Shown here: positions 3,278 through 12,560 of the stretch, piece after piece | Numbering within the stretch: position 1 is the stretch's first letter | Layout of the letters: every line of letters starts with the position of its first letter | From: Deltaproteobacteria bacterium | GTDB lineage: Bacteria > Desulfobacterota > Syntrophia > Syntrophales > UBA5619 | Length of the DNA: 15,039 nucleotides | Assembly (NCBI GenBank): GCA_026388365.1 | Contig: JAPLJW010000100.1 | Span: 1-15,039, forward strand | Reading direction: 5' to 3' | The notes under the pieces: model-generated | Seen by the model: only the letters and a program-made list of their open reading frames with translations | Database searches by the model: none | Told to the model about the DNA's origin: nothing | Made by a program: the position numbers and the translations under genes

Positions 3278-3659
3278 CAAATCCTTATTTCAACAACAGA
3301 GGATTTCACAAAGATGTAATTTTGCTTATCCGGGTTTATTATTGAATTCTGGATGAAAGATGGCATTTTCGGAGGATGATCGGGGTTGAGATGTGCATCC
3401 TGTCAGTCATTCAAGGACCAATTCAACAGACTATCAACTCAAACGTAAGCATCAACCGGATGATCTTCTTTGATTCCGGTCGCGCAGACTTAAATGTTTC
3501 CGCTTGATTTTCCTCCCCGTCCCCTCTATCGTACCGGGCAGGGAGTCCCTCTCTTCACTGTAAACTCCACTTCTTCACAATGTCATCCCCCTCGAATCAG
3601 CACCGCATCCTTTAGGGACTTCGTTATAAGCGAAAGTCTTTCACAGAAAGGAGGACGTC
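3278..3659. other. Intergenic region without a recognised gene
   Basis: About 380 bases separate prfC from the amidohydrolase-peptidase gene. Small frames here have no recognisable content and poor starts. There is no convincing Rho-independent terminator after prfC. TATAAG at 3625-3630 could be a -10 for the downstream gene, but no matching -35 is visible. A strong Shine-Dalgarno (AAGGAGG, 3648-3654) closes the region. Base composition is visibly more AT-rich than in the flanking genes. Confidence 0.5.
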
Positions 3660-5987
3660 ATGACCCAAAAACCGATCGATGCCCATTGTCATCTTTTCAG
3701 CGCGAGGTATGTCGTCGAAGAGGCGGCCGCCATGGGATGGGCCTATGTCGCCGGCAATTACCCGCATGCCGAAGCCGTCACCCGGGCCGATTTGGCTGCC
3801 GAATCGCTGTTCTCCTGGAGCCGTCTGGAGGATGTCGTCAGGTGGTTCCTTGACCTCGGCGCCGCGGTGAGCAGTTATGAAACGAACTACCAAAGCATCG
3901 CGAAGGCCTGCCGTGAAGGGTTGAACCTTCCTTCCACAGAAGGACTGATCGTCGCGCCCCTGATGATGGATATCTTCTACATGTTCGGCCCTCCCGCAAG
4001 CGGGCCTATGCAGGGGGTCAAAGCAGGGCGGACTGTGCGGAGGACGAAACGCCTGCGCGACGCCGAAGACAGGGAAGCCAGCAAAGCGGCCTTCGAACGG
4101 TTCCAGAAGCGGGTCATCGCGCTGGTTGCGGAGAGAACGGCGGCGGCGCCCAAGGCGAAAGGCCGCCCTGCCGGAATCCGTGATTCCTTAAAGGGCGGTC
4201 GGGAGCCCGCCCTTTCATCAAAGGAGACCGACCGGATCTTTCTGGACGCGAGAAGTGCGGGGACGGCGAAGGGCGTTATGAAAGGCCTCACCGCCGGGCG
4301 GGAGCTGTCGCGGGGCTTCGAGAATCAGATCGCCGCCCTGATCGAACTTCAGGCAAATCACGCGGGGTCGGTGTTTCCCTTCTTCGCCGTCGATCCCCGC
4401 CGGCGCGGTGTGGTCGATATGGCCATCCGCGGGATCCCCGAACTGAACGGCGGCAAACCGCTGGTCACGCCATCGGGGCCGTTCTTCGGCGTCAAGCTCT
4501 ACACCCGGCTGGGATACTTGCCTGTGGATGTCCCGGATGAACTGTACGGTTACTGCGACACAAACCGGATCCCCATCACCGTCCACACCAGCGCCGAGGG
4601 CTTCCCGCCCGTGTCGGACTGGGAATATGCCGGCTATGCGGCTCCCGATTATTGGCAGGCGGTTTTGGACAAACATCCCGCTCTCCGCCTCGATTTCGCC
4701 CACTTCGGCAGCGGCAACGACGCATGGGTCGTGCAAATCCTGAACTTGATGACCCGCTATCCGAACGTTTATGCCGACCTGGCCTGCTATACGGATCGCG
4801 GCGAACTGTTGCAGGCAAGGAAAGTCTGGAGCGACAATGCCATTGTTCGGGACCGGCTGCTGTTCGGCACGGATTTCGTCGTCTCGTCTCTGACCCAGGT
4901 TCTAAGCCTGGAAGGGTATTTCGAGGCCTTCCAAGAGGTCTTCGGCCCCGCCGACCTGGAGGACCTGATGACGGTCAATACCCGGAAATTCTTCCAGCCG
5001 ATTCTCCCGGCAACGGCCGGCTTACCGGCGGCGCGCCGCGTTCCCCCCGCCGACGAAGAGAAACTGCGCCGCAAGCTGGGCTGGCTTCCGGATCTCCCCG
5101 ACCATCGGGACCACGACATGGAAACGGATGTGGTCCCCCGGCATCTCCTGCGCCTGAACCGCCAACAGACCGTGAAAGGCATGATGGAAAAGACCACCCG
5201 CTGTGCCGACGCATCGGCAGGGCGTGCGCCGTCCGCCCCGGCGCTGCCGGGGTCCGTTGATCTGCGCCGGTGGTGCTCGCCGATCGAAGACCAGGGACCG
5301 CTCGGCGCCTGTACGGCGCATGCGGCGGCGGCACTCATCGAATATTACGAACGGCGGGCCTACGGAAGCCATATCGACATCTCCCGGCTGTTTCTCTACA
5401 AGGCGACCCGCAATCTGCTCAACTGGACGGGCGACACGGGGGCCTATCTGCGCACGACGATGGAGGCTATGGTCCTCTTCGGCGTTCCCCCGGAGGAGTA
5501 CTTCCCCTACGATCCGGCCAACGTGGAGATCGAACCTTCGGCCTTCTGCTACTCCTTCGCCCAGAACTACCAGACGCTGACCTATTTTCGCCTGGACGCC
5601 GCCCGGACGACCCGCCCGGAGCTGCTCCGGCAGATCAAGATGAATCTGGACAGGGGCATCCCCGCGATGTTCGGCTTTACCGTCTTCGGCTGCATCGGCA
5701 GCGCAGCCAGGACGGGACGGATCCCCTTCCCCGTCAAGACCGACCGTCGCGAAGGGGGGCATGCCGTCGCCGCCGTGGGTTACGACGATGGCCTCGTTAT
5801 CCGCCATCCCTTCACGGATCTGGAAACGAAAGGCGCGATCCTGATCCGGAATTCCTGGGGCAAGGCGTGGGGGGAGGGAGGATACGGCTGGCTTCCCTAC
5901 GAATATGTGCTGCACCATCTGGCCATCGATTGGTGGACGGTCCTCAAACAGGAATGGGTGGACACCCGTCAGTTCCAGGAACCGTAA
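3660..5987 (+). CDS. Amidohydrolase-2 / papain-like C1A peptidase fusion protein
   Basis: The 775-residue protein has two enzymatic halves. Residues 1 to about 450 form an amidohydrolase-2 (ACMSD-like) TIM barrel with the metal ligands in place: HCH at 9-11, His309 (ITVHT), His348 (DFAHFG) and Asp405 (FGTDFV), plus [10 protein letters not shown] and [14 protein letters not shown] basic, charged region at about 115-215 is probably an insertion. Residues 474-484 ([11 protein letters not shown]) match the stretch that commonly precedes bacterial C1A peptidases. The peptidase domain (about 530-760) has Gln545, Cys551 ([11 protein letters not shown]), His701 ([12 protein letters not shown]) and Asn731 ([16 protein letters not shown]), so all four catalytic positions are present. 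No signal peptide is seen, so it is probably cytoplasmic. The start has AAGGAGG five bases upstream. A DUF1232 gene follows 37 bases downstream. Substrates are unknown. Each domain call is secure; the joint function is not known to me. Confidence 0.93.
4190..4215 (+). repeat. Perfect 9-bp hairpin inside the fusion gene
   Basis: AAAGGGCGG (4190-4198) pairs perfectly with CCGCCCTTT (4207-4215) around an eight-base loop. It encodes roughly residues 177-186, in the poorly conserved basic insert of the amidohydrolase half. It resembles a terminator stem but has only three T bases at its end. Confidence 0.5.
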
Positions 5988-6024
5988 TGCAGGCGGGATG
6001 GGTATAGGTTTCAAGACGGGAAAA

Positions 6025-6402
6025 ATGATATCATTCGGTTCATGGAAAGACAGCGTCAAGGCCCTGAAGCGGGAGACCTTCACGCTCTACCTGGCCTGCC
6101 GCCACCCCCGCGTCCCCTGGTACGCGAAGCTCCTCGCCCTGATGGTCGTCGCCTACGCATTGAGTCCGATCGATCTGATCCCGGACTTCATCCCCGTGCT
6201 GGGATACCTGGATGACCTGATCCTTATCCCGCTGGGGCTCATGCTTGTGATCCGGATGATCCCGGCGGATGTCCTCGCGGAATGCCGTCAGCAATCGGAG
6301 GAAATCGTCGGAAGAGCGACCCGGGCGGGGAAAATCGCGGCCGCCGTGATCGTCGCGATCTGGCTCCTTCTGGCGGCGCTCATCGTCCGCCTGATTCTGT
6401 AA
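6025..6402 (+). CDS. DUF1232 (YkvA-type) small membrane protein
   Basis: This 125-residue protein carries the DUF1232 signature [19 protein letters not shown] at 47-65, set in hydrophobic stretches: about 33-52, about 62-79 and a C-terminal anchor at about 103-124. The family is widespread in bacteria and its function is not established; some members are called YkvA. It is probably an inner-membrane protein. The ATG at 6025 follows AGACGGG, a weak Shine-Dalgarno. An ATG at 5998, in the same frame and 10 bases after the upstream stop codon, is an alternative that would add nine residues. The close spacing suggests it is transcribed with the fusion gene at 3660-5987. Confidence 0.85.
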
Positions 6403-6491: not shown

Positions 6492-8195
6492 ATGAAGGAC
6501 CAACAGAAAGACGAACGCTGCCGCCGGATGTTTCAGGATCTCCTCCCGAACATCGCCGATTACGTGACCCGCTACGCCAAAGAGCGGCCGAAGGAGACGG
6601 CGATCATCGAGCACAACACCGGCGAAACGGTGACCTGGAAGCAGTTCGACACCTCCGTCTCCGCCTTCGCCGCCAAGCTGCTCTCCATCGGCCTCGTCAA
6701 AGGGGACATCGTCGCCACGAGCCTGCCGCTGCTGAAGGAACACGTCTATCTGATCTACGCCTGCTACCGTATCGGGGTGATCGTCGCCCCGCTGGACCTG
6801 CGCCTGAAGGCCAAGGAGGTCATCGTCTGCATGGAGAAGATGAAGCCAAAGGCCTTTTTCTTCCTGGGAAAGACGCCGGTCGTTGATTTCCGTCCCCTCA
6901 TCCGGGAGGTGATGGCGGCCTGCCCCTATATCCGGCATTGGGTTCAGTTCCAGAAAGAGGCCGACCTGATCATGGAAGGCGCCGTGGGAATTGCCGATTT
7001 CGCAAAGGACATCAAAAAGGTTTATCTCTTCAATCTCTTTACGGGGCGTGTGAAGAAAGCCCGCCGCCTCGTCGGAAAGCGGGATGCCTGCCTGATCATC
7101 TTCACGACCGGCTCCACCGGCTCCCCGAAACCGGCGCTGCTGTGCCACGAGAACATCCTGATCCAGTACGTCGGCCTGTGCGTCGGGTTCGAGCTTAAAG
7201 CCTCCGACCGGATGCTGATCAACCTGCCCCCTTCCCATGTGGGCTGCACGACGGAGCAGTTGGGGACGGTCCTCTTCGGCGGCGGGGTCGCGGTGATCCT
7301 CCATATTTTCGATCCGAAGCTCTCCCTGGAGGCGATCGAAAAGCACCGGGCGACCATCATCGGCCAGATCCCGGCGCTGTTCAACATGGAATGGCGCCTT
7401 CCCGATTACGGAAAATACGACCTCAAGAGCCTCCGTTTCGCCATCTACGGCGGTCAGGCCGTACCCCGGGAATTCCTGGTGAAGATGAAGGCGATGGCGC
7501 CCCGGATCGGGACAGGCCTCGGGCTGACGGAAACGGCCGGCTTCTGCACCTATACGAACGTGGACGCCGACGTGGATGAGCTCGCCCAGGGGATCGGCTA
7601 CGATTCGCCCCTGTGTCTGATCACGATCCGCGATTTCATGAGGGCGGACGGCACGGCCGGGGCGGAAAAGCCGCGGGGCGAGGTTGGGGAGATCTGCTTT
7701 TCCGGCCCCCAGGTTTTCTTGGGCTACCTGGGCGATCCGGAAAACACGGCCAGGACGATCTCCCGGGAGGGCGTCTGCTACACGGGCGACGTCGGTTATT
7801 ACGACGAAAAGGGGCTCCATTTCTCCGGCCGGGCCAAGCTCGTCATCAAGCCGAAGGGGTATCAGGTCTTCCCGGAGGACGTGGAGAATCACATCCATGA
7901 GAAGCTCAAGGAGCGCGCCGGCATGATCGCCATCGTCGGCGTCGAGCATGAGATCTTCAGCGAGGGGATCATGGCCTTCGTGGAGTGCCAGGATGGAAAG
8001 ACGATCACCCCCTTGGAGGTCCTGGCCGCCTGCGGCGACATCTCCGCCTATTCAAGGCCATCGCACGTGGTGATCCTCAAGGCGGGCGAGATTCCGCTGA
8101 ACCGCGTCGCCAAGACCGATTACCTGAACCTCCGGGAGAGGGCGGCGGCGGCGGTCCGGGAACTGCGCGCCGAGGGGAAGTGGGACCGGGGGTAG
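6492..8195 (+). CDS. AMP-forming acyl-CoA synthetase / ligase (ANL superfamily)
   Basis: This 567-residue enzyme would activate a carboxylic acid to its CoA thioester via an acyl-adenylate. Visible motifs are the phosphate-binding loop FTTGSTGSPK (204-213), TETAG (346-350), YTGD (430-433), the hinge region GRAKLVIKPKGYQVFPEDVE (446-465) and NRVAKTDY with the probable catalytic Lys541. Length and motif order are normal for the family. The hinge usually reads GR-x-KD-x-IK; here Leu replaces the Asp, a small deviation. The start has GAGAGG (6478-6483) eight bases upstream. There is no signal peptide, so it is cytoplasmic. The substrate cannot be told from sequence; a medium-chain or aromatic acid would suit a fermentative or syntrophic anaerobe, but that is inference. 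It has no neighbouring beta-oxidation genes in the window. Confidence 0.92.
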   Translation: MKDQQKDERCRRMFQDLLPNIADYVTRYAKERPKETAIIEHNTGETVTWKQFDTSVSAFAAKLLSIGLVKGDIVATSLPLLKEHVYLIYACYRIGVIVAPLDLRLKAKEVIVCMEKMKPKAFFFLGKTPVVDFRPLIREVMAACPYIRHWVQFQKEADLIMEGAVGIADFAKDIKKVYLFNLFTGRVKKARRLVGKRDACLIIFTTGSTGSPKPALLCHENILIQYVGLCVGFELKASDRMLINLPPSHVGCTTEQLGTVLFGGGVAVILHIFDPKLSLEAIEKHRATIIGQIPALFNMEWRLPDYGKYDLKSLRFAIYGGQAVPREFLVKMKAMAPRIGTGLGLTETAGFCTYTNVDADVDELAQGIGYDSPLCLITIRDFMRADGTAGAEKPRGEVGEICFSGPQVFLGYLGDPENTARTISREGVCYTGDVGYYDEKGLHFSGRAKLVIKPKGYQVFPEDVENHIHEKLKERAGMIAIVGVEHEIFSEGIMAFVECQDGKTITPLEVLAACGDISAYSRPSHVVILKAGEIPLNRVAKTDYLNLRERAAAAVRELRAEGKWDRG

Positions 8196-9404: not shown

Positions 9405-10880
9405 TCATTTTTTGAAGTGCTGCGTTATGGACTTCCGGAGACTCAAAAGCACGACAACGGCAGTCAGTCCCAAAAAGAGAATGGCGATGGGACGAGAAAG
9501 GAAAATGGCCAAGGAGCCGCCCGACATCTGCAGCGTCGCACGAAAATGCTGTTCCAGGGCCGGACCCAGAATAAACCCCAGGATCAGCGGGGCTGCCGGC
9601 CAGTCGCGAATCTTCATCAAGTAGCCAAGAATACCAAAGGCAATCGCGGTCCAGACGTCGAACAATGTATTTCTGACGGAGTAAGCGCCGATGATGCATA
9701 TGGCCAGCGTCACGGGCCCTAAATAACGGTACGGAATCATTGCCAAACGCACCCAAAGGCCTACCAGGGGCAGATTCAGAATCAAAAGGATAACGTTTCC
9801 GATATACATGCTGACAATGATCGTCCACGCCATATCTGCGTGTTGAGCAAATAACAGCGGACCGGGTTGGAGCCCATACATCATAAAGGCGGCAAAAAGC
9901 AGGGCCATGGCGGCATTCGTCGGCAGTCCCAGCGAAAGCAACGGTATCAATCCGGCCTCACTGGCTGCGTTATTCGATGCCTCCACGGATGCCACCCCTT
10001 CGATTGCCCCGGTGCCGAACTTCTCCGGATGCTTCGATGAACGAACTTCCACATCATAGGCAACGAAGGCAATGACCGAGGGCATCATCCCGGGAAGGAT
10101 GCCCAGGCCCAGCCCAACTGCTGTTCCCCGTAGGCTTGCATACAACCCTTTGGCCAATTCAACGCCTCGGGGAATCATCCGGCCCAGTTTTCCCGTGTAG
10201 ATCGCGACCAGACCCTCATTGGCGCTGGACAGGATTTCCGCTATGCCGAAGAGTCCCATGAGCACCGGAATCACATCGAATCCCTTCATCAGCGATGTCA
10301 ATCCAAAATTTAATCTTTGCATTCCTGTCATGGGATCCAGTCCAATGCTGGCAATGAGCATACCCAAAGTGGCCATCAATACGCCGCGGATCTTGCTTTT
10401 ACCGGATACAGCCACCAGGGTTGTAAAACAAAACAGCATCAACGCCACATATTCGGGAGCTCCGAATTTCAACCCCAGATCGGCCAGAGGAGGGGCAGCT
10501 ATCTGCAACACGACGATGGCTACGGTACCGGCAATAAACGATCCGATCGCGGCGATGGCCAATGCCTCTCCACCTCTGCCCTGCTTGGTCATCTGGTAGC
10601 CGTCGACGCAGGTGAGTATAGAAGAGGCCTCGCCGGGCACGTTGAGCAAAATACTCGTTACAGACCCTCCATACATGGCCCCATAAAAAATACCCGCCAA
10701 CATGATAATGGCTCCCGTAGGATCCAGAAATGCGGTCAGCGGAAGCAGCATGGCCATCGTCGCCGTTGGACCCAATCCGGGCAACACGCCAACCACGGTT
10801 CCCAGTAAACAGCCCATAAAACAGTAGAGCAAGTTGAACGGAGAAAGGGCACCCTGTAAACCAATCAGCAAATTTCCCAT
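9405..10880 (-). CDS. tctA: Tripartite tricarboxylate transporter, large membrane subunit TctA
   Basis: This 491-residue, very hydrophobic protein is the large permease of a TctCBA-type carboxylate importer, which takes substrate from a periplasmic binding protein and is driven by an ion gradient. It shows the family repeats: GVLPGLGPTATMAMLLP near residues 31-47, YGGSVTSILLNVPGE (70-84), then DGYQMTKQGRGGEAL, and in the second half GLGLGILPGMMPSVIAF, EASNNAASEAGLIPLLSLGLP and WPAAPLILGFILGP. About ten to twelve membrane segments are expected. Length is typical (about 500). The start at 10880 lacks a strong Shine-Dalgarno. It is the last gene of the C-B-A set, 64 bases after tctB, so translation may depend on upstream reading. 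Confidence 0.95.
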   Translation of the reverse strand: MGNLLIGLQGALSPFNLLYCFMGCLLGTVVGVLPGLGPTATMAMLLPLTAFLDPTGAIIMLAGIFYGAMYGGSVTSILLNVPGEASSILTCVDGYQMTKQGRGGEALAIAAIGSFIAGTVAIVVLQIAAPPLADLGLKFGAPEYVALMLFCFTTLVAVSGKSKIRGVLMATLGMLIASIGLDPMTGMQRLNFGLTSLMKGFDVIPVLMGLFGIAEILSSANEGLVAIYTGKLGRMIPRGVELAKGLYASLRGTAVGLGLGILPGMMPSVIAFVAYDVEVRSSKHPEKFGTGAIEGVASVEASNNAASEAGLIPLLSLGLPTNAAMALLFAAFMMYGLQPGPLLFAQHADMAWTIIVSMYIGNVILLILNLPLVGLWVRLAMIPYRYLGPVTLAICIIGAYSVRNTLFDVWTAIAFGILGYLMKIRDWPAAPLILGFILGPALEQHFRATLQMSGGSLAIFLSRPIAILFLGLTAVVVLLSLRKSITQHFKK

Positions 10881-10944
10881 CAGATCTTACACCCCAACCG
10901 ATAGATACCGATATCCATGGATCAGATGAACGGGCCGGCGATCC

Positions 10945-11394
10945 TCATGGCATGGGTATTTGTGCCAGGTAAACAAAAACACCCCAAAAAACAGCCCCCG
11001 AAATGCCGGCGATCAGGATGGATTTAACCCAGGATTGCTCGCCGAACAGACGGGTACACACCAACAGGAAAGCCGCTGTACTCAGAAAGTATCCTATGTA
11101 GGGGAGCAGGGCGCAGCTGACAATCATCGCAACAATGGCGAAAGAAGCTGGTCCCTTCCATGAAAATGCCTCCTCTGGTGCCGCCTCTGTTTTTTTATCG
11201 CGCCCTTTAAAAGTGGAAACAATGTAATAAAGGCCGCAGACGATCAATACCAGGCTTAAGATGATGAGATACCATCCCGGTCCGAAGGCATCGCCTGCTT
11301 CCTCTGAACGTCCGTTGAGTCTGAGACCTTCGATAATACCCACGATCCCGAAAATCATCAAAACAAGGCCTTCATTACAAAGAATAGCAACCAA
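10945..11394 (-). CDS. tctB: Tripartite tricarboxylate transporter, small membrane subunit TctB
   Basis: This 149-residue protein has four hydrophobic segments (about 3-22, 43-62, 83-102 and 120-142) separated by a charged linker (FKGRDKKTEAAPEEAF), the usual build of TctB, the small partner of TctA. Its sequence is poorly conserved in the family, as is normal; the assignment rests mainly on size, topology and its place between tctA and tctC. The start is a TTG at 11392-11394, with AGGAG on the minus strand about nine bases upstream; no better ATG is in frame. A large hairpin separates it from tctC. Confidence 0.88.
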   Translation of the reverse strand: MVAILCNEGLVLMIFGIVGIIEGLRLNGRSEEAGDAFGPGWYLIILSLVLIVCGLYYIVSTFKGRDKKTEAAPEEAFSWKGPASFAIVAMIVSCALLPYIGYFLSTAAFLLVCTRLFGEQSWVKSILIAGISGAVFWGVFVYLAQIPMP

Positions 11395-11422
11395 GATGCT
11401 TATCTCCTCTGCATTTATATTT

Positions 11423-11465
11423 CTCTGGAGAGCGCCGCCAGGATGAGTGGCGGCGCCCCCCAGAG
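11423..11465 (-). repeat. Strong intercistronic hairpin between tctC and tctB
   Basis: An inner nine-pair perfect stem (11432-11440 with 11448-11456, seven-base loop) is extended, across a three-by-three internal loop, by a six-pair outer stem (CTCTGG 11423-11428 with CCAGAG 11460-11465). It starts 35 bases past the tctC stop and ends just before the tctB ribosome-binding site. On the minus strand no T-tract follows. Hairpins here are known in transporter operons to stabilise the binding-protein message; that role is inferred. Confidence 0.7.
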
Positions 11466-11500
11466 GGATTGGATCCTTGGGATGCGTTTTTAAATATGGA

Positions 11501-12481
11501 TTACAGTTCCTTTAATTCTTTGGCAAGATCCAACACATAGGTACGAAAATCCTGGGAGCCCGCAAATGCGGGAACCGCCCCGATCTTGCCCAACTCCTTC
11601 GCGATCTCCGGCGAGTCGATGGACCCTTTGATTGCATCCTCAATGGCCTTCACAATTTCCGGGGGGAGACCCTTCGGTCCGGCAAATCCCACATGGCCCT
11701 GGAAGGTGACGGTTTTCCACCCCTGTTCGACCGTGGTATGAAGATCAGGATAAGCCGGATGCCTGTGACTCCCGGTAATGGCGATGAGTTTTACCTTGCC
11801 CGCACTGGACATGGGCCCTACCGATGTTGTTGAAGCGGACCCGATGTCCACATGTCCGCCTGCCAAAGCAGTGACCAGGTCAGCCCCGCCGGGATAGGTC
11901 ACCATTTTGACCTTGGAGACATCGATGCCCTTCTTTTTCAGCGCTGCCCTGAACTGACCGACGGGCCCGTCTGCTCCGGCAGTACCGCCCAGCCAGCCCC
12001 ACTTGATCTCGCCCGGATTGGCCTTGATCGCTGCGGCTACGTCATCCAGCGATTTCCACGGCGAGCCGTCGCGGATCGTGAATACCCAGGGAAATTCGGC
12101 GATTTTAGCGATGTAGGTCCGGTCTTCGATTTTGAAGGGAACATCCTTGCCCCAGGCGGCGGGGATGGCATTGCTGCCGTCGGCATCGGCCAGCAGGGTG
12201 TATCCGTTTGGCGCCGCACTCAGCGCCTCAACGGTTCCGGGGATCCCCTTGCCGCCGGGTTTGGCGGTCACGTTGACGCTGACGCCCCATTTGTCTGACA
12301 ATATTTTCGCACCCACCCTTGCCACCCCGTCGGTGCTTCCACCCACGGACCAGGGAACGATCACGGTAATCGGTTTATTGGGAAACTTTGCCTGTGCCGC
12401 TGCCGTTTGCATCCCTAAAAATACGGCAAGAACAGGGACGATGATCACCAGTGAAACCAGCAACCTGAATTTCTTGTTCAT
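11501..12481 (-). CDS. tctC: Tripartite tricarboxylate transporter periplasmic substrate-binding protein (TctC/Bug family)
   Basis: This 326-residue secreted binding protein would capture a carboxylate in the periplasm and hand it to TctAB. The first 31 residues are a Sec signal peptide: MNKKFR, a hydrophobic core and an AAAQA cleavage site. The mature part has the family marks FPNKPITVIVPWSVGGSTD (33-51), NGYTLLADADGS, VTYPGGADLVTALAGGHVDIG and FAGPKGLPPEIVKAI. Length is typical. The ATG at 12481 has GAGGAGG eight bases upstream; an in-frame ATG at 12550 would put residues ahead of the signal peptide and lies in the promoter region, so I reject it. It is the first gene of the C-B-A operon. 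Bug-family ligands are diverse, so the substrate is open. Confidence 0.95.
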   Translation of the reverse strand: MNKKFRLLVSLVIIVPVLAVFLGMQTAAAQAKFPNKPITVIVPWSVGGSTDGVARVGAKILSDKWGVSVNVTAKPGGKGIPGTVEALSAAPNGYTLLADADGSNAIPAAWGKDVPFKIEDRTYIAKIAEFPWVFTIRDGSPWKSLDDVAAAIKANPGEIKWGWLGGTAGADGPVGQFRAALKKKGIDVSKVKMVTYPGGADLVTALAGGHVDIGSASTTSVGPMSSAGKVKLIAITGSHRHPAYPDLHTTVEQGWKTVTFQGHVGFAGPKGLPPEIVKAIEDAIKGSIDSPEIAKELGKIGAVPAFAGSQDFRTYVLDLAKELKEL

Positions 12482-12532
12482 ACGAACGCCTCCTCGTTTT
12501 GATGAAATCACATATCGCCCAACCTCTGTCCA

Positions 12533-12560
12533 GAAACTTAGATGTTTCATTACATGGAAC
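12533..12560 (-). promoter_or_regulatory. Overlapping palindromes downstream of the tctC promoter (operator candidate)
   Basis: Two inverted repeats share an arm. GAAAC (12533-12537) and GTTTC (12544-12548) are separated by six bases, and GTTTCAT (12544-12550) and ATGGAAC (12554-12560) by three bases with one mismatch. They begin about eleven bases downstream of the -10, covering the expected transcription start and early leader, where a repressor would block transcription. No regulator gene is in the window. Confidence 0.5.

Follow-up and report, generated by a model that had tools for sequence, protein, structure and literature searches.

Papain-type (C1A) enzymes often carry N-terminal pro-segments when synthesised, which commonly keep the peptidase in check, and in xylellain the tail packs over the active-site groove. 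The xylellain chain (3ois) consists of one peptidase unit (291 residues); it is the best solved relative of the C-terminal half of the protein described here and has identical catalytic residues. Its substrate is reported as unknown in the accessible part of PMC12090721, where non-classical secretion is predicted for xylellain-like peptidases of plant-associated bacteria. Other multidomain prokaryotic C1A peptidases likewise combine the C1A unit with another domain (PG_binding_1, VanY or LamG), and such proteins are numerous and appear without detailed analysis in the accessible part of PMC10380794; amidohydrolase is mentioned once, in the reference list, in the accessible part of PMC10318531. 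We analysed a stretch of 15,039 nucleotides, called the window throughout, encoding a peptidase unit of the xylellain kind that sits behind an amidohydrolase. Among the relatives listed, the combination of C1A and amidohydrolase occurs only in the fusions reported here, and the literature searched, including the accessible parts of PMC10380794 and PMC10318531, yielded no description of it, in agreement with the original prediction, which likewise pointed to no described system of this architecture. Within that literature the architecture is an undescribed, new combination of two known families.

The two halves lie in a single open frame that is preceded by a good ribosome-binding site and closed by one terminal stop (Table 1). 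Amidohydro_2 (PF04909) is matched with 72.1 bits over residues 211-445 (cut-off 26.4) and Peptidase_C1 (PF00112) with 45.6 bits over residues 529-744 (cut-off 20.7), and both halves show the residues (HxH/His/His/Asp and Gln/Cys/His/Asn, respectively) and the fold (TIM barrel and papain fold) of their families. We aligned the window protein with 27 fused relatives (alignment A1, 28 rows, P0011 and P0174 left out) and found H309, H348, D405, Q545, C551, H701 and N731 to be invariant. H9 and H11 are nearly invariant, being absent only from P0010 and P0035, which by our own reading of the alignment would be explained by both rows starting late; in every row covering the respective positions H9, H11, H309, H348 and D405 are all kept. 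The presumed metal-binding and catalytic roles of these five residues are those of ACMSD-type enzymes, whose ligand set this half shows. The prediction of one frame carrying every metal-ligand and catalytic position was thus upheld, as was that of two complete domains.

Table 1. Positions of the fused gene, its parts and adjacent features in the window
Feature	Position	Strand	Remarks
Shine-Dalgarno-like AGGAGG	3649..3654	+	read in sequence; 5 nt upstream of ATG at 3660
Fused gene	3660..5987	+	775 codons plus stop
Amidohydrolase half, residues 1-450	3660..5009	+	TIM barrel; H9, H11, H309, H348, D405
Variable linker, residues 451-473	5010..5078	+	low model confidence; variable in alignment A1
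Peptidase N-terminal tail, residues 474-528	5079..5243	+	conserved motif, then variable-length loop; common to free C1A proteins, present in 29 fusions
First GWLP-coding repeat	5079..5090	+	shares 11 bases with copy at 5886
Papain-type C1A catalytic domain, residues 529-775	5244..5984	+	Q545, C551, H701, N731
Second GWLP-coding repeat	5886..5897	+	807 bp (269 codons) downstream, in frame
DUF1232 small protein, next gene	6025..6402	+	Pfam on longer frame 5905-6402; start codon inferred; not a conserved neighbour

The fusion recurs outside the window. An unbroken fused frame is present in other assemblies, complete in L001 and from residue 14 in L002, and both Pfam domains (PF04909 and PF00112) are present in 28 of the best 120 of 181 relatives; one further fusion, P0174 (797 aa), came from an amidohydrolase profile search and was read from the sequence. 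The prediction had named two findings that would speak against a real fusion, i.e. homologues that are always two separate genes and an assembly slip near 5000-5200; neither was encountered, and both chance and an assembly error in this region are ruled out as the source of the fused form by its occurrence in other assemblies and in at least 28 listed relatives. Automated annotation already assigns both names to some of the relatives. NCBIfam gave no match for P0001, and PADLOC gave none for P0001 and three other window genes, so that a defence system was dropped as a candidate.

The peptidase half carries the xylellain-type N-terminal tail motif G(W/Y)xPDxxDxRD at residues 474-484. The tail is laid out as a GWxxDxPDxRD-type motif followed by a QTVKxM-like segment and LPxSVDL, the mature-type start, and in 3ois the sequence GYIPDIADIRD resembles the window motif, a match made by eye, HMMER having aligned that part of 3ois elsewhere. 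As the original prediction held for the GWxxDxPDxRD stretch, this tail is typical of this C1A group, the GW...PD.RD motif and the QTVKxM-like segment being common to fused and free C1A proteins. Because fused and free proteins share this tail, the fusion took the whole peptidase gene, and because the tail is conserved in the fusion, the end of one complete protein was joined to the start of another, with about 23 variable residues (451-473) in between.

Free peptidases of this type are widely distributed. A genome scan, in which 318 stretches were confirmed and 80 loci kept, returned free C1A genes with products of roughly 300 residues at 75 of the 80 loci (L006-L080), and these free leaderless genes are spread over many phyla. 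In 47 of the 69 free C1A genes measured, even the longest possible frame extends no more than 16 residues upstream of the GW motif. The absence of a signal peptide, regarded as unusual for a papain-type enzyme in the original prediction, thus looks usual in this group. Xylellain-type peptidases are widespread in bacteria and also present in archaea-labelled bins, and xylellain-type C1A genes were seen in contigs labelled Methanothrix and Altiarchaeota (L072, L051).

Our data are best described by a reading, to which we give about an even chance, according to which the gene encodes a cytoplasmic two-enzyme protein that originated from the end-to-end joining of two complete genes. The first strand of the barrel lies right at the N terminus and a hydrophobic leader is absent, from which we infer a cytoplasmic location. 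The C-terminal half would be a leaderless xylellain-type papain peptidase keeping its own N-terminal tail, now placed between the domains. Like many N-terminal segments of C1A enzymes, this tail may keep the peptidase latent, and the substrates of the peptidase would be proteins or peptides in the vicinity of the hydrolase. Tethering would serve the co-production and co-location of two linked activities, possibly of a shared pathway.

The region joining both enzymes was modelled with low confidence. In the full-length model the mean pLDDT values for the blocks covering residues 451-480 are 34, 31 and 44, and the linker 451-473 and the loop 512-526 are both of low confidence; in a second model, comprising the peptidase half with its tail, the mean pLDDT is 60, and the tail is weak in both models. 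The spacing between the GW motif and the catalytic Cys is 74-82 in the window clade, 68-69 in the Geobacteraceae-type group (excluding P0032, which was mis-measured by the script) and 56 and 58 in the two rows of a third group. The low-confidence linker and loop, the extra residues ahead of LPxSVDL in the window clade compared to the Geobacteraceae-type group and the established occurrence of N-terminal pro-segments in C1A enzymes would fit a self-processing polyprotein, in which the peptidase cuts within 451-473 or 512-528 to free itself and the hydrolase, the release acting as a switch. We hold this to be rather unlikely, as no conserved cut site was seen in the linker and loop of the A1 rows and as the free xylellain-type proteins bear the same tail without any upstream domain to release. 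An arrangement that we judge unlikely is a protease switch built into the protein, in which the tail-latent peptidase, once triggered in the cell, would cut the joining region, making hydrolase release and peptidase activation one event; if true, this would be a cytoplasmic bacterial two-enzyme zymogen. The fusion represents a simple test object comprising one protein, one cysteine and one linker.

The amidohydrolase half differs from the described amidohydrolase-2 enzymes compared, i.e. 5-carboxyvanillate decarboxylase, ACMSD, isoorotate decarboxylase and BB4693 (3irs), to which it is just 9-18% identical over the aligned part. Unlike these, it contains a partly helical insert of about 100 residues in the barrel half (approximately residues 111-215) and motifs including KLYxRLGY. 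It is best read as a metal-dependent enzyme of a distinct, mostly free-standing subfamily, a reading that shares the even chance given to the two-enzyme protein as a whole. Its reaction is probably the hydrolysis or decarboxylation of a small molecule, most likely a small carboxylate or amide; the neighbouring genes differ even among close relatives and thus give no pointer to the substrate.

Most relatives of this half live without a peptidase. The fusion is not universal, since a C1A part is lacking in 93 of the 120 amidohydrolase relatives listed (best 120 of 199, profile search). Among these 93, about 12 are window-clade pieces, several of which are cut short or frame-broken; the remaining 81, one of them from the cultured Anaerobacterium chartisolvens, mostly have a length of about 375-500 residues and share 27-40% identity with the window protein. 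Unfused amidohydrolases are also nested inside fused clades (P0017; P0145, P0150 and P0152), and therefore the fusion can be lost. In P0017, encoded at locus L004, a stop was read directly after the barrel, and the locus keeps the upstream order of the window, i.e. a sucC-like followed by a prfC-like gene, plus one extra small gene. P0145, P0150 and P0152, whose ends may be a stop or a contig end, form one well-supported clade within the Geobacteraceae-type group, and P0013 (L003) runs off its contig and is hence uninformative on fusion. P0012 lacks exactly the stretch between both GWLP motifs, which might reflect either recombination-like loss of the sequence between the short repeats, a route by which the peptidase domain would be deleted, or an assembly slip.

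Pairwise dN/dS values between the window and L001 are low: the two barrel parts give 0.17 and 0.27, the insert gives 0.39, the linker together with the tail 0.27 and the C1A domain 0.10. Compared to L004, which is devoid of the peptidase, the barrel parts give 0.27 and 0.32, pairwise values that cannot isolate the L004 branch. Weaker values were obtained for the C1A domain between the window and L005 (0.30) and for the insert (up to 0.51). We read the low pairwise values as suggesting that the hydrolase is under constraint also without the peptidase, and because of this occurrence tethering would not reflect a physical need.

The fusions fall into three groups, i.e. a window-like (Syntrophus-like), a Geobacteraceae-type and a small third group, each of which forms a clade in the peptidase tree; the window is placed near Syntrophus-like bacteria on account of L003 and L004. 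This tree comprises 72 rows, including 27 of 28 fused proteins, 38 of 70 free genes chosen by random draw and 7 of 10 proteins of other architectures; P0035 was omitted, its end being out of frame. Constraining window and Geobacteraceae-type groups to one clade improved on the free quick tree by 20.0 log-likelihood units (p-AU 0.85), constraining all three groups together by 7.4 units (p 0.68) and constraining window and third group by 9.7 units (p 0.72); as the constrained trees beat the free tree, the free search was poor. In the amidohydrolase tree, built from 40 hand-chosen rows with the nested unfused rows grouped in after the tree was inspected, a single clade of all fusions was marginally rejected (p 0.038), a clade of window and Geobacteraceae-type groups was not rejected (p 0.104), and the branches with good support require no fewer than three changes between the fused and the unfused state. 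An old fusion with repeated loss would be the simplest reading of these trees, and more than one fusion event is possible.

These data also bear on a chance or neutral joining, in which the halves would be functionally unlinked and the fusion merely persists. The fusion is missing in several relatives inside the fused clades, the gene neighbours are unconserved, several other domains likewise occur in combination with this C1A unit, and the linker dN/dS of 2.4 between the window and L003, calculated over only 14 codons, fits a mere spacer. We nevertheless regard this explanation as quite improbable, as the fusion is old, the window and Geobacteraceae-type clades being only about 45% identical with both active sites kept in each, and as the peptidase tree fits better with these two groups together. 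A long-lived fusion to a putative small-molecule hydrolase would be a concrete hint at what one xylellain-type peptidase works with.

In a sample of 395 genomes from the phylum of G001, six match the amidohydrolase half at E 1e-15, and the fused form was seen only in G001. A search for Geobacteraceae-type fusions in 277 genomes of one class, run with P0120 at E 1e-40, gave no match, an outcome that carries no weight because a known positive was lacking. Among plasmids, 24 records show a match, none of which reaches 80% query coverage.

We analysed whether the two activities are linked beyond the fusion itself. In favour of the two-enzyme reading, one Bacteroidota contig (L049) contains a free C1A gene and, beyond one intervening gene, an amidohydrolase frame that a stop interrupts (L049:3780-4902, in-frame TAG near the start). 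Of 75 genomes with a free C1A gene, 11 also encode an amidohydrolase relative at E 1e-20 or better (10 of 50 and 1 of 25); nine of these 11 are Chlorobi, and in several the match is confined to the later portion of the profile. No close pair other than L049 was seen, and inspection by eye of eight regions from seven co-occurrence genomes revealed no C1A gene beside the amidohydrolase. The pathway link within the two-enzyme reading is thin, as neighbours are unconserved, co-occurrence is confined to 11 of 75 genomes and unfused amidohydrolases are nested in the fused clades.

The genes flanking the fusion carry release factor 3 and DUF1232 domains according to Pfam, and the neighbours of the fusion are not conserved even in close relatives. 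A conserved operon with the DUF1232 gene and an acyl-CoA-ligase-like gene was considered and dropped, as L001 and L002 have a Ku-like gene (by eye) downstream. Further downstream in the window, the frame 6492-8195 (+) shows AMP-binding (acyl-CoA-ligase-like) domains by Pfam, and three frames at 9405-12550 (-) resemble by eye a tripartite tricarboxylate transporter set.

Free xylellain-type C1A genes are in some cases accompanied by a chagasin-type (I42) gene. We scanned all 52 close neighbours of free C1A genes, i.e. genes on the same strand with a gap under 260 bp and a length of 95 aa or more, and the I42 family matched six of them. In the control, 52 genes hand-chosen from 95 more distant genes on either strand, the families matched at least twice do not include I42, single-match families being shown only in part. 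The six cases, identified by cluster and by eye (L011, L016 and L047 from Microcystis, L036 from Accumulibacter, L020 and L031 from Solitalea), represent about three independent lineages. This suggests that the I42 genes adjoining free xylellain-type C1A genes encode a cognate inhibitor, and their position beside free relatives points to an active, regulated peptidase. At L029 an I42 gene lies beside a free C1A gene by cluster membership only. A 194-aa gene beside C1A in Chlorobi was considered as a chitinase and dropped, the L006 copy giving no Pfam match at E 0.001.

The inhibitor genes, the leaderless state of the free relatives and the joining of relatives to peptidoglycan-binding, VanY or LamG domains might indicate that the peptidase is a protein-degrading payload using an unknown route of release or export, with the hydrolase as carrier or second payload. 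This appears very improbable for the fusion: Pfam assigns no I42 to either flanking gene; inspection of the window frames by eye revealed no gene recognisable as one for secretion; and the hydrolase resembles a small-molecule enzyme. A motif scan for I42 over the six reading frames of the window returned one match, which lies opposite the sucC-like gene.

Among the C1A relatives of other architectures, P0043 contains an intein-type splicing domain inside the peptidase, between WGE and SGYGW, and P0047, P0049, P0089 and P0093 likewise contain one by precomputed domain. P0042 is a C1A peptidase with a Nif11-like segment on its C-terminal side, scoring 23.7 bits, just below the cut-off of 23.8.

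The analysis outlines a sizeable uncharacterised amidohydrolase subfamily that extends into phage contigs. Three IMG/VR contigs encode short free-standing amidohydrolases forming one clade (L131:7995-8969 in 143,854 bases, L132:7299-8285 in 24,135 bases and L133:7725-8720 in 101,730 bases); in viral scans the A1 and A4 profiles found the same three contigs and the A3 scan found no relative. The L132 amidohydrolase has no match in a named phage collection, and its neighbours resemble by eye ribonucleotide reductase, ParB-like proteins and a DNA methylase. A distant amidohydrolase relative of 402 aa is encoded at L127:2140-3348 (-) among genes that are phage-like by eye.
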